64,000 nt of DNA, taken from positions 370,570-434,569 of the forward strand of contig JAPZUA010000004.1 of the NCBI GenBank assembly GCA_027532905.1, in the 5' to 3' direction. Shown piece by piece: positions 59,420 through 64,000 of this stretch (positions are counted from its first letter, which is position 1; every line of letters starts with the position of its first letter). The stretch comes from Magnetospirillum sp. Its GTDB lineage: Bacteria > Pseudomonadota > Alphaproteobacteria > CACIAM-22H2. The position numbers were made by a program, and so were the translations under genes. Below the pieces are notes generated by a model, which saw nothing but the letters and a program-made list of their open reading frames with translations, did no database searches and was not told the DNA's origin.

Positions 59420-59662
59420 ATGGACGATGCGATTCCCGATATGGCGCGCAAAGGGCGCGGGGCGGTTTCGAATGCGGCGGGGCGCTTCGAGCGACTCGGC
59501 AGCCAGCGCATCGACGACGGGTGGCATCGCGAGCCGGACGAGGATTTGCCGCCCTTGCGCACGCATGTCACGCGCGACGCGAGCCGCACCGTCATTGCGC
59601 GCAACGAATCCCCGGACATTCCGTTCGCGCAATCGATCAATCCCTATCGCGGCTGCGAGCAT
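59420..59662 (+). pseudogene. PA0069-family radical SAM protein, interrupted by integration
   Basis: The N-terminal 80 or so residues are clear: KGRGAVSNAAGRFERL, a central segment with DDGWHRE, then SPDIPFAQSINPYRGCEH. In the family this is followed at once by the CxxxCxxC that binds the SAM iron-sulfur cluster (GCEHGCxYC). Here the reading frame leaves the family sequence after GCEH and stops six codons later at 59683, at the element end. The gene is therefore cut before its catalytic site, and the rest should lie beyond the element. The family is related to spore photoproduct lyase-like radical SAM proteins. It sits behind a LexA-type box. Confidence 0.78.
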
Positions 59663-59690
59663 GTTTTATCCGGCGCCCTCTGAAAACATG
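59660..59690. repeat. Inverted repeat at left end of integrative element
   Basis: CATGTTTT at 59660-59667 and its exact reverse complement AAAACATG at 59683-59690 flank a 15-base spacer. The left arm begins inside the GCEH codons of the radical SAM gene. This is the form expected of a tyrosine-recombinase core site, with the crossover in the spacer. Confidence 0.65.
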
Positions 59691-59784
59691 AATGCTTGAT
59701 TTTGCAGCCTTTCTTGTGGGCGCGTTTCATGTCAAAAAATGCTCTATAGAAAGTCAGTATTTTTGTTCAAAGCACATGAAAAAC

Positions 59785-59820: not shown

Positions 59821-61116
59821 ATGAAAGAAGCCAATCAGCCCAACGCCGTGAACAGTTTTGTCCAGGTGAGCGTGGGGCATACGGTGTATTTTTACGCACA
59901 GCCTAGCGACCTGAAACCCTCCGTCTCCATCCCACCCCGGACCCCTGCGATCTTCAATTCGGACGGGTCGATTCACCGCGACGCGACGACTTACCTTTAT
60001 TCCCTTACGGGGATGTGCAGGCCCGGAACGTGGCGGGTTTACGCCTACTCGCTCGCGGGCTGGCTCGACTTTTTGGCCTATAGCGGCCGCGACTATCTGC
60101 GCGCTAGCCAGCAGGATTTAGAAATGTTCCGGGACATTCACGCCCAGGGCTCTGCGAAAACAGGGGAGGCGTTTTCCGGCGGCACAATCGGTCTGCGAAT
60201 GATCGTTGCTATCAAGTTTTGCCAGTTTTTGGCGGCTCGGGGTGACTACGTTGGCGATATCCTCTCGGGCGATTACCAGCGGCCAAGTAAGTCTCGCGCT
60301 CCGATCGACAGCGACTTGCTCGCCCACACTCGCACCGGCGAAGGTCGTTCGGGTGGTTACGCGGCTGTCCCGAGAGCCAAGGCAAGCCGCCCGATCCGGC
60401 CTTTGACGTATGACGAGCTCCGGGCCTTGCAAGAGGCCGCCGGCGAACCGCGCACGAGGGATCGCCTTGTGGTCGATATTGCTTGGAAAACCGGGCTGCG
60501 GCGGCAAGAAATCGCCGATTTGGATTACCTGCAGTTCATTAACGTTCTGCTCACCGGCGACCCTGAGGCTGTGCATCCAATTGAAGTGATCGGTAAAGGC
60601 AGCAAAGCCCGCAATGTCTTGTTTGATGAAGAGTTGGTGGCGGACATTCAGCACTACATCGCGAATGACAGGCTCTTTGCGACCCGCGCGCGGAGCGTCG
60701 CGCGTGACGGCGAGCGTGCGTTGTTGGTAACCAATGCTGCCACACGAAACGGCCAACCTGGTCGTCGTCTCAGTGCGAACAGACTGTGGGAAGTCGTCCA
60801 AAATTCAAGCGTGAAGGCGGGGTTGACCCTCGAAAAGCATTTTGAAGGAAAGGTTGTCGTCGAGGCCCGCGTCTCGCCGCACGACTTGAGGCACACGTTC
60901 GCGGTAATGTGTCTGGCCGGATTTATGGCGAACAACAAGACCGAGGACGGCCTCCTCCACATCCAGCAGCTTCTCGGCCACGCGCACTATTCGACGACGC
61001 GCAACGTCTATCTCAAAGAAGCCGGCATCTGGCTGCGCCGCGTCCGCGCCTCGCAACGCCCCGATGGCTATCAGCACGTGCGCCTGCCCGGCCAATTTAT
61101 GCGGAGGGGCCGCTGA
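59821..61116 (+). CDS. Tyrosine recombinase 1 of the trio
   Basis: 431-residue site-specific recombinase with an apparently complete catalytic set: Arg in KTGLRRQEI (about 224), Lys in GKGSKARNV, HDLRHTF (about 353), LGHAHYSTTRNVY with the second histidine and nucleophilic tyrosine (about 385-397). The N-terminal half holds a SAM-like DNA-binding domain with RPGTWRVYAYSLAGWLDFL. ATG 59821 is chosen; an ATG at 59776 and one at 59692 are also in frame. It ends in TGATG, overlapping the next start by one base. It probably catalyses integration and excision together with the other two. Confidence 0.88.
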   Translation: MKEANQPNAVNSFVQVSVGHTVYFYAQPSDLKPSVSIPPRTPAIFNSDGSIHRDATTYLYSLTGMCRPGTWRVYAYSLAGWLDFLAYSGRDYLRASQQDLEMFRDIHAQGSAKTGEAFSGGTIGLRMIVAIKFCQFLAARGDYVGDILSGDYQRPSKSRAPIDSDLLAHTRTGEGRSGGYAAVPRAKASRPIRPLTYDELRALQEAAGEPRTRDRLVVDIAWKTGLRRQEIADLDYLQFINVLLTGDPEAVHPIEVIGKGSKARNVLFDEELVADIQHYIANDRLFATRARSVARDGERALLVTNAATRNGQPGRRLSANRLWEVVQNSSVKAGLTLEKHFEGKVVVEARVSPHDLRHTFAVMCLAGFMANNKTEDGLLHIQQLLGHAHYSTTRNVYLKEAGIWLRRVRASQRPDGYQHVRLPGQFMRRGR

Positions 61117-63002
61117 TGCCCCCGAAAACTAAAAACGCGATGTTAGAGCTCGTCGAGCGGGCGCGTGACAAGCAGGGGGCCCGTGCGAATGTAGATGAAC
61201 TCAGCGCGTTCCGGCCCGAGACCCGTGTTGATCGGGGGGTGGGCGCGCAGGGGGAGTATTGCCGCGTTGTGTTTCCTGTCGCCGGCGGTGACCCAGAAGT
61301 ATACAACCTCTCTTATCTATGTGACTTTCCAAATCTTTGCGAACCATTGGCCGAAGCGTTCAAGCGCTGGGGCCCCGACAAGCAAGGAACGACACGCGAC
61401 ATCATCCGAACGGGCCTACGCCGCTCCTTCATCGAATTTCTCTCCGAGGAAAGCGCGTTCGAAATAGGCCTACAGTCGATCAATCGTGATCTATGGATGG
61501 CCTTCAAAGGATGGCTCGACAAGCCGCGGAGCGGTTCGTCGAACCCCTGGCATCCTAGCGTGCGCCGTCAATGTTTAAGCAATGTAATCACCTTGTTTGA
61601 GGCACTTGCGACACTGCCTAAGTGGTCGGACGAGGCTAGACGCATCGTGACGGAATTCCCGCGTGGGGCTTATCCGGGATCGGCCCGTAAGAACGTCCCG
61701 CGCGAAACATTGGAATGGTCGGATCTGCTCAAAATCAAAGCGGCAGCCGAGGCGGAAGTTCGGAAGATTGTGGCACGTCTCGACGAAGGTGAGCGCCTGA
61801 TCGCTGAGGGGCGCGAGAAACTTGCCCAGGGGAGCATCGATTTCTTTAAGGATGTTTCGGTCAGCCTCGCCGCGATCGACACACGTTACCCAGACGTCGT
61901 ACCCGACGAATACACAATGAAGCGCGATCTTCGGGCAGAGGGACCAGTCGGCGCGAAGCTCTTCAACGCGGTCAAGCGGCGGGGTTTTCTCACCTACACA
62001 AGCTCGCGCGGTGCACTATCGCGCGACCTAGTGCCGTTCGCGCTGCTGATTTCGATCGCTACTGGATTGAATGCCGAACAGGTTTTGACGCTCGAACTGA
62101 AGGACTTTGAGTTAGTCGACGATATGGGAGAACAGTTTATTATAATAAACGTCTTCAAAGATCGAGCCGGTTCATTCCAAAAAATTCGCAAGCCGGCTGG
62201 AGACCTCGATGGAATGGGGCTTGGCTATATTTTCGAGCAATTGAAGCGGGCGACTGAGCGCGCGCGTCGCAGTGCAGCGAGGGAATACAATGGCCGTTTT
62301 TTTGTGTTTCGGCCAGCTTGGGGTAGCGCTGTGGGCCGCAACGGATTTGGCACATCTCGTCAACCGGCCACAAGCGATCAAGTTTGGAGAAGTATTTTGG
62401 ATCGCTTCATCAGCGACAATGATTTGAAGCGCTTTAACTTGTCGCAAATTCGCCCGACCGTCGGGGACGATATCCAGCAGCGCTTCGGTGCGATCGAAGC
62501 GGCGGATTTTCTTGGCCATGAATCCGTCGATACAACCCGGAAATTCTACACGAGCGGCGCTACGCGCCGTCGCGGTCAAGCGCGGGTTGGCGAAGTCCAG
62601 CTTCTTTTTCATCGTTGGGCGCATTCCAAGGGCAAGATTGACCCGCGGAAGAATTACCGGGACGGCCGTGACAAGGGGGCGGCTACGCCGGGCTTTACTT
62701 GCCGAGACCCGCTTAATTCGCCGAGGCCAAATCAAAAAGCCGGGCAGCTTTGCCAAGCCTACGGCGAATGCGCTGCCTGCCCAAAGGCAGTCGCCTATCC
62801 GCATGATAGCATTGCGGCGAGCTATTACATCGCGCTGCAAAAAGCGATTTTTGACGCGGCTGGTTCGTTCGTCACACCGGCCGCGTGGCGCACAAAATGG
62901 GCCTCAATCGCCCTGAACCTCGAAGTGCTAATCTCCGCAATACCCGACGACGTGAAGGCCAAGATCAAACCTCTCCCGTACCCCTTGCCGAGCATCCGGT
63001 GA
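61116..63002 (+). CDS. Tyrosine recombinase 2 of the trio, large TnpB-like
   Basis: 628-residue recombinase-like protein. The N-terminal 270 residues are a DNA-binding and linker region; a long helical segment follows (about 200-250). The catalytic part is recognisable in ATGLNAEQVLTLELKDF (about residue 315) and DFLGHESVDTTRKFYTS (about 465), giving the tyrosine. The first catalytic arginine is not obvious in the ATGLNAEQ position, so activity may be altered. A cysteine cluster near the C-terminus (FTCRDP, LCQAYGECAACPKA) looks zinc-binding. GGAGGGGCC upstream is a good ribosome site. Length equals Tn554 TnpB-type proteins. Confidence 0.82.
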   Translation: MPPKTKNAMLELVERARDKQGARANVDELSAFRPETRVDRGVGAQGEYCRVVFPVAGGDPEVYNLSYLCDFPNLCEPLAEAFKRWGPDKQGTTRDIIRTGLRRSFIEFLSEESAFEIGLQSINRDLWMAFKGWLDKPRSGSSNPWHPSVRRQCLSNVITLFEALATLPKWSDEARRIVTEFPRGAYPGSARKNVPRETLEWSDLLKIKAAAEAEVRKIVARLDEGERLIAEGREKLAQGSIDFFKDVSVSLAAIDTRYPDVVPDEYTMKRDLRAEGPVGAKLFNAVKRRGFLTYTSSRGALSRDLVPFALLISIATGLNAEQVLTLELKDFELVDDMGEQFIIINVFKDRAGSFQKIRKPAGDLDGMGLGYIFEQLKRATERARRSAAREYNGRFFVFRPAWGSAVGRNGFGTSRQPATSDQVWRSILDRFISDNDLKRFNLSQIRPTVGDDIQQRFGAIEAADFLGHESVDTTRKFYTSGATRRRGQARVGEVQLLFHRWAHSKGKIDPRKNYRDGRDKGAATPGFTCRDPLNSPRPNQKAGQLCQAYGECAACPKAVAYPHDSIAASYYIALQKAIFDAAGSFVTPAAWRTKWASIALNLEVLISAIPDDVKAKIKPLPYPLPSIR

Positions 63003-63007
63003 CGCAC

Positions 63008-64000
63008 ATGCCCGCGCAGATCCGTCAACTCACGATCGCTAATCAATCGACCCAGACGATCATCCAATCGACTGCTTTGAAGCCGCTCTTTCTGCGCACC
63101 AATGCCGAGCTGAAAGACGCCTGGGTGTCGTCGCAGTCGCGGTGGTTCGATGTGCGTTGGGTGCTGGATGGCGATGTGCCGGGGCAGTCCAAAGGTTCTC
63201 GGTCGATCAAGTGGGACATCGAGATTGCCGATGGAGAATACCTCACCGCACCAGACCACGCAGAGATGCTCGATTGGTTGCGGCGGATCGTCTGGTCGTG
63301 CTTCACGAGCCCAGCACGTGGCCATCTCGCCGCGCCTGGTTCGGCGAGTCAGATTTCTAGCGGCACTAAGACGCTCGTTCGTTGGATGATGGAAACGAAG
63401 CGTCGCACGCCGGTCGAGCTAACGCGTGAGGCGTCGTGGGAGTTTGTCGAGGAATTACGGGACCTGTTGGACGCCGGTGACGACTCCGATTTGTCGCGGT
63501 CCCAGGTAAGCCCTTCCGTGCGGTTCTTTCAGCGCGTTTGGGAGCAAGCCCCTGTTATCAAAATCGAACGCGCCTCCACAATGCCGTTCGATGGACAATC
63601 GGTTGAGCAAGCCGTTTCACGAGTTACATCGCGCGAGATCGGCGAAATTCCACCGCTCCAGGACGAAGTGGCCATTCCCGTTCTTAACCAGGCAACGTTC
63701 TTTGTCCAATACGCTGCGAATGACATTTGCGAACTTCTTCATGCGTTCCAGACTGCGACGCCGCCAAATGGGGGCGTTAGCAGATACCCTCAAATGCTGG
63801 CACGACAAAAAGCCGCAAGGGCTTTCGAATTCACCATTCTTCCAGGTGCTTCCAAACCCTGGCATCCCCGGTTGTTCGAGCCAGGAGAAATCGGAAATAC
63901 GGTTCGCGCTTTGGTGGATAGCCTTAAAGCCGCCTGCGTAATTGTCATTCAGGCCACGACCGGCATGCGGATCAGCGAAATCTGCGGTATGCCTTTCGGG
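63008..64000 (+). CDS. Tyrosine recombinase 3 of the trio (partial)
   Basis: 331 codons open to the right edge. The N-terminal part is unfamiliar (SSQSRWFDVRWVLDGD, WDIEIADGEYL), with a possible DNA-binding region near residues 110-180. The frame reaches the catalytic arginine box as QATTGMRISEICGMP at the very edge, so the active site proper is outside the window. ATG 63008 or the in-frame GTG 62999, which overlaps the gene 2 stop (GTGA), can start it. It is the third coupled recombinase of the element. Confidence 0.8.
   Translation, partial: MPAQIRQLTIANQSTQTIIQSTALKPLFLRTNAELKDAWVSSQSRWFDVRWVLDGDVPGQSKGSRSIKWDIEIADGEYLTAPDHAEMLDWLRRIVWSCFTSPARGHLAAPGSASQISSGTKTLVRWMMETKRRTPVELTREASWEFVEELRDLLDAGDDSDLSRSQVSPSVRFFQRVWEQAPVIKIERASTMPFDGQSVEQAVSRVTSREIGEIPPLQDEVAIPVLNQATFFVQYAANDICELLHAFQTATPPNGGVSRYPQMLARQKAARAFEFTILPGASKPWHPRLFEPGEIGNTVRALVDSLKAACVIVIQATTGMRISEICGMPFG

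Follow-up and report, generated by a model that had tools for sequence, protein, structure and literature searches.

A radical SAM gene cut at its cluster-binding codons

Why does a gene for a radical SAM enzyme break off within the codons of its cluster-binding cysteines? The question is raised by the left part of a PA0069-family gene (59420-59663, plus strand) in a 64,000-nucleotide stretch of a 4.26-Mb draft genome (contig C4, positions 370570-434569), which we call the window. We consider it very likely that the gene here meets the left end of a 24.2-kb island of the GInt type, made up of ginABCD, cargo genes and an AT-rich right end, and that tyrosine recombinases integrated this island by a crossover of about 6 bp into an attachment site (attB) formed by the C-E-H-G-C codons of the gene.

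The frame beginning at 59420 reads MDDAIPDM... to ...SINPYRGCEH and then VLSGAL and a stop; the gene part ends in NPYRGCEH plus one base. A profile search of the genome placed positions 1-70 of NF033668 (rSAM_PA0069) at C4:430019-430234, left of an insert, and positions 70-348 at C4:454469-455305 (398.9 bits), right of it. There was no third NF033668 match anywhere in the genome, which holds the two gene halves only. Measured by its terminal motifs, the insert between them is 24,231 bp long. The right junction reads GGATATAACGCTTGGCTGCGTCTATTGTTATGCG, with codons for GCVYCYARPTHAY directly after the element: GGC TGC GTC TAT TGT TAT GCG encode GCVYCYA, RPTHAY comes next, and the His codon of GCEH stays on the left side. 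A preliminary description of this DNA had proposed a split at GCEH and predicted such a right junction. Both proposals were borne out, the split by the frame, by the two profile halves and by an empty site.

That empty site lies in a genome of the same genus (G109, locus L043), where the uninterrupted sequence, GGCTGCGAGCATGGCTGCGTCTATTG, is identical to the two flanks joined. The left flank aligns with this locus over 1,385 bases (89.6%) and the right flank over 2,336 bases (90.6%), and the aligned flanks abut there at adjacent bases (1714/1715). Joining the flanks gives an intact frame of 360 aa. Apart from the core, the product expected on excision, or an empty site in the strain itself, would be GGCTGCGAGCATGGCTGCG.

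The insertion has cost the gene its continuous enzyme frame. Its left product stops six codons beyond the His. The right half holds only the second and third cysteines, without the first, and its frame contains no ATG, GTG or TTG from the last in-frame stop to its GC codons. A radical SAM enzyme should lose cluster binding when the three CX3CX2C cysteines are not all in one protein, and such a loss is expected here because the three never occur together. Neither a second copy nor an in-frame start restores the enzyme, as the preliminary description had anticipated unless the right end repaired the gene, and family models found no replacement radical SAM gene carried by the island.

A profile search for the PA0069 family found matches in at least 226 of 387 genomes of the class. 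Among the matches listed, we followed 11, leaving out genomes with weak matches such as G044 and G079, and none of the 11 carried an insert at position 70. Two genomes had the gene in pieces on two contigs (G259, positions 1-91 and 94-348 on L045 and L050; G189, positions 1-213 and 234-341), two had adjacent pieces, as if by frame changes (G054 and G192), and one match stopped at a contig end (G376).

Ends of the island and the crossover

The left terminal motif of the island, TTTTATCCGGC (59664-59674), pairs imperfectly with the right terminal motif, GACGGATATAA (C4:454453-454463, outside the window). The preliminary description had noted a repeat that starts exactly at the cut. This 8-bp inverted repeat, CATGTTTT (59660-59667) and AAAACATG (59683-59690), is real, but half of its left arm is host DNA. 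We rejected it as the terminal repeat, since its CATG belongs to the host, being the His codon and the G after it. The element begins near 59664, and the partner of the left motif is the far right end rather than the inner AAAACATG. The best terminal-repeat score of the window element over all spacers tried was reached by 4 of 2000 shuffles. The corresponding counts in five related elements were 0 (L059), 4 (L065), 47 (L063), 51 (L092) and 123 (L066, in Microvirga), and the terminal repeat of the Microvirga element is weak.

If the left end is set at the point at which the match to the empty site breaks off, the terminal repeats are separated by a 6-bp spacer, AGCATG at the left attachment site (attL) and CGCTTG at the right (attR). 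The putative attL core (59658-59663) would then be host sequence between the first and second Cys codons, positioned by the axis of the terminal repeats and the end of host identity. Our preference for 6 bp follows the crossover published for GInts and for strand-biased circularizing integrative elements (SEs), and the point at which host identity ends. Several observations weigh against this choice. The terminal repeat is imperfect, and in the window element a 4-bp spacer gives 10 of 12 matches against 9 of 12 for 6 bp. Across six elements the 6-bp spacer is nowhere the sole best: it is beaten by 4 bp by one match in the window element, L059 and L092, is beaten by 2 bp in L065, and is tied for best in L066 and L063, though it is never more than two matches off the best. 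The attL and attR cores agree at four of six bases, agreement does not clearly extend past the cores, and this is shorter than the direct imperfect repeats of 10-17 nt of GInts. The ends thus fit a 6-bp crossover without proving it, and a 4-bp core is possible.

A GInt-type operon

Next to the left end lies ginA (59821-61116, plus strand), which encodes a 431-aa tyrosine recombinase with the catalytic R, HxxR, H and Y. It is followed by ginB (61116-63002, plus strand; 628 aa), whose product resembles a recombinase in fold but lacks the first Arg and the HxxR His, and by ginC (63008-64000 in the window, plus strand, ending at C4:435724 beyond it), whose 715-aa product has complete catalytic residues. 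GinD (163 aa) and a small 150-aa protein complete the order from left to right. GinA keeps its R, HxxR, H and Y in 21 aligned loci, and GinC its catalytic residues in 20 of the 21, the remaining one (L084) being cut off by a contig end; in all 21, GinB has N or S in place of the first Arg and no HxxR His. A structure model of GinB (mean pLDDT 79.4) matched lambda integrase (E 1e-4); the TM-score relative to the query was just 0.30.

Comparison of profiles (hhalign) with the GInt on the Pseudomonas aeruginosa plasmid pPA30_1 gave matches at 2.9e-28 for GinB, 9.2e-45 for GinC and 1.7e-7 for GinD, and cross matches between non-corresponding proteins were far weaker. GinA matched the same GInt with 25.9% identity (E 3e-8, tblastn). 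By these sequence matches, the element is a GInt-type island. GInts are described as ginABCD islands in PMC5385486, and as the Tn6571 family in PMC10121019. The window island resembles them in its four-gene operon at the left end, with three recombinase-like proteins and a small DUF6262/TnpC-like protein, in its variable cargo that includes restriction genes, in its AT-rich right end and in a probable crossover of about 6 nt. GInts are excised as a circle, for which all four genes are required. Unlike them, the window island cuts inside a catalytic motif and breaks the enzyme motif. The degenerate recombinase also seems to differ: PMC5385486 reports that the first catalytic Arg is missing in GinC of GInts, although this is not part of the GInt definition, whereas in the branch of the window island the degenerate protein is GinB, and all the catalytic residues (R, HxxR, H and Y) are retained in GinC. 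Reading the motif in GinC of two P. aeruginosa elements, we found R, or an adjacent R, at the first catalytic position. A survey of ginC-ginD pairs in PMC10214605 reported none at all in Alphaproteobacteria, and the window island is probably a GInt-type island in this class. The indication of the host class comes from the ETF-QO protein of the window, whose best twelve plasmid matches, of 447 records, all come from Azospirillum at about 70%; this is suggestive of Alphaproteobacteria without being proof.

Related islands and the codons they cut

GinB at E 1e-20 found only itself in 385 genomes and had no match in viral contigs; plasmid records matched GinB (8 records) and GinC (31), and two of these plasmid loci were opened as relatives beside 35 loci from genome contigs. 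The preliminary description had suggested searching for other elements with the same site. PA0069 sequence occurred in none of the 37 loci, many of which are cut off at contig ends, so that absence there means little; the sites of L067, L068, L086, L087, L084 and several short contigs were unreadable.

The search did reveal a cut of the same register in another radical SAM family. In Microvirga sp. ACRRW (L066), the relative whose GinC is most similar (39% identity) interrupts a TIGR03916 gene. Positions 1-64 and 65-402 of the family are separated by about 72 kb, a third match is absent, and the cut occupies the same CX3CX2C register as that in the window. Its site, with the core taken from attL, would be TTACTGCC-TGTTCG-ACTGCGCCTATTGC, and that of the window is CGCGGCTGCG-AGCATG-GCTGCGTCTATTG. 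Both right arms begin two bases before the second Cys codon, and the two sites share the pattern CTGC(G/C)-6 bp-(G/A)CTGCG(T/C)CTATTG. Family models found no replacement TIGR03916 gene on the Microvirga island. That an element with no more than 39% GinC identity has hit a different radical SAM family in an identical register lends independent support to the earlier suggestion that the recombinases recognize the coding sequence around the cluster cysteines, and they may well read these codons as DNA. The two elements fall into one clade (support 0.999) with elements in RecJ and PP-ATPase genes and are not sisters there; the targeting of radical SAM genes may thus be ancient or have arisen more than once.

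We searched the genome of the window island for open sites with a pattern combining the window left arm with both right arms, those of the window and of Microvirga. Its only exact match is uninterrupted, in moaA at CDFRCVYC (L221 1501-1524), and a match with two mismatches lies in mtaB at QGCDHRC; both genes pass the NCBIfam cut-offs. Two other near matches lie, by reading, outside radical SAM motifs, and the control, a reversed version of the pattern, likewise had two matches when up to two mismatches were allowed. In the same register, the attR cores would encode C-x-L-G-C in the window element (CGCTTG) and C-x-A-Y-C in the Microvirga element (TGGCTT). One may speculate that the two islands previously resided in other radical SAM genes, with which these cores would be compatible.

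Other relatives cut a variety of genes. A Massilia element splits a DNA-deoxyinosine glycosylase gene (TIGR04274 positions 1-31 and 33-150), and one in an Azonexaceae metagenome-assembled genome splits an acyltransferase/transporter gene (NF005291 positions 4-28 and 29-192). At the right end of an island in Novosphingobium percolationis lies part of an ArdC gene (HExxH; PF18818 positions 2-51); we read its left end by eye and used the relative L078 to score the 50-126 side. A PP-ATPase-like gene of Sphingobium plasmids and Novosphingobium, for which a natural empty site exists, is interrupted at two positions, each by a different element; the name comes from reading the gene, as profiles reached just E 0.017, and the gene at the empty site (L204) is incomplete further on. 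At the second of these sites the terminal repeat matches at 9 of 12 positions, with TGCTCG on both sides. The split of RecJ is visible on its left side only.

To compare these sites, we ranked the 8-column window at each cut by conservation among all windows of the family. The cut in PA0069 ranked at 1.9% (43 homologs), TIGR03916 at 3.8% (7), RecJ at 0.17% (29, superseding 2.0% from 3 homologs), the glycosylase at 1.9% (4), NF005291 at 1.6% (10) and the second PP-ATPase site at 1.0% (8). Six of the eight scored sites thus lie in the top 4% of conserved family windows (Fisher p 1.2e-6, or 6.3e-6 without the window site), a test biased toward conserved genes, since only recognizable genes entered it; the eight sites are also not fully independent, and the homolog sets are small. 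That related islands often cut at the most conserved codons suggests that they target sequence which the host has little freedom to alter. Other results count against such a rule, and against recognition of cluster codons in particular. Microvirga aside, relatives with readable sites target genes other than radical SAM genes. The ArdC cut ranks at 14.9% (9 homologs), the first PP-ATPase site at 50% (8 homologs) shows no above-average conservation, and the intact moaA site means that sequence alone is not decisive.

Inteins and homing introns are likewise located in conserved active-site codons of unrelated genes, and they splice out of the product. The island does not, and the host gene is therefore lost. 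Some relatives bring a homolog of the gene that they cut: a whole 160-aa glycosylase frame lies 160 bp inside the right arm of the Massilia island (L106 18930-19409, minus strand), and a 300-aa ArdC frame 119 bp inside the right end of the N. percolationis island (L119 3991-4890, minus strand). In this they resemble SE-6283, which is described in PMC9345347 as interrupting bcp, a gene for a conserved enzyme, while bringing a homolog of it.

Proposed mechanism and alternative explanations

In the mechanism that we propose, GinA and GinC would cut and exchange strands, and GinB and GinD would assist binding or direction. The recombinase complex would read the arms around the core, and the DNA of these arms would stay unchanged since it specifies the cluster cysteines. 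The attR core CGCTTG would have been carried over from the previous site, and the island should be able to leave and so restore the gene. More tentatively, at a little under an even chance, we propose that a GInt-type branch in Alpha-, Beta- and Gammaproteobacteria takes invariant catalytic or structural codons of unrelated genes as attB (radical SAM CX3CX2C, HExxH, GDYDADG, SCSLKW, YYAHPRN and FNDNLFKN). Its radical SAM lineage would move among cluster motifs, with moaA as an open site; the 6 bp at attR would record the previous target; and the enzyme would be lost unless the island brings a replacement.

An SE-type element that moves by copying out is an unlikely alternative. The order recombinase, degenerate protein, recombinase, small protein is that of SE-6283; the third gene matches its IntB (E 2e-12) and the fourth its Srap (2.1e-7); a 6-bp spacer between imperfect terminal repeats, an SE feature in PMC10214605, would fit the window element, where 4 bp scores one match better; and the movement mode of GInts themselves is not settled. 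However, the second gene is not detectably related to SE-6283 Tfp (E 0.56, hhalign), the target genes differ, and ginB and ginC match GInt far better. We filed the island as GInt-type because GinB, GinC and GinD match GInt while the second protein of SE-6283 is unmatched. RIT elements differ in having three recombinases of 315-410 aa, compared with 431, 628 and 715 aa here. Tn554 differs in having TnpA, TnpB and TnpC only, set against three recombinase-like proteins and one small protein in the island; it has no counterpart of the third large protein.

Somewhat less probable than an SE-type element is an accident, in which the island entered a short stretch that happened to permit insertion and the cysteine codons are irrelevant. 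The absence of PA0069 sequence from the 37 related loci, many of them truncated at contig ends, would agree with this, as would the unremarkable first PP-ATPase site. Against it stand the element closest by GinC, whose cut has the same codon register in a different radical SAM gene, and, subject to the selection bias noted above, the enrichment of conserved sites. We regard as improbable a reversible switch in which excision restores the enzyme under some condition: the joined flanks do form the intact 360-aa frame, but the related SEs form circles without empty sites, according to PMC10214605. An assembly artefact is scarcely credible, for although the draft genome is in 13 contigs, both junctions lie within one 558-kb contig, the terminal repeats match and the flanks meet exactly in the relative.

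If codon-guided integration holds, the target choice of multi-recombinase islands would become a readable rule in which protein conservation equals attB DNA conservation, and an island reading catalytic codons would have a site in nearly every host. The rule predicts sites, here moaA, and makes both the loss of active-site genes and island-borne replacement genes testable. If the host class is right, GInts extend to a class where the survey in PMC10214605 found none. This kind of element is already known. Among the titles listed in searches of open-access literature, none dealt with radical SAM or active-site targets of such islands, which is a weak negative. Judged by those searches, novelty lies in the disruptive site inside catalytic codons, in the repeated use of such codons by related islands and in the probable class of the host.

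Cargo and further observations

The cargo comprises a RecD2-like helicase, a phosphoesterase, HNH-like and SMC-like genes and, near the right end, HsdR, HsdS and two HsdM, with HsdS assigned by reading the open reading frame list rather than by profile. The type I restriction genes (L004 13117-19551 and L005 841-4255) include two different HsdM and an HsdR with an N-terminal HNH-like stretch, and an SMC-like ATPase with LmuB-like matches adjoins this system. The last 150 bp at the right end have 36.7% G+C, compared with 58% for the element.

The 150-aa protein after GinD (L004 6311-6763) matches DUF6262 weakly and has a counterpart with 37.5% identity in the Massilia element (L065 12629-13123); this second small DUF6262-like protein is possibly a fifth core gene. 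Among the relatives, the operons of L069, L070, L078, L082, L090 and L092, several of which occur in sphingomonads, form a clade located at the codons for HExxH in antirestriction genes of the ArdC type. The two islands that cut the PP-ATPase-like gene (L057 10182-19057 and L215 2317-12585) are different recombinase-trio islands, and both cuts occur on pSES189. Two further relatives were left unscored: L058 is located where traU ends, and L093 interrupts a pirin gene, of which the left side alone is visible.
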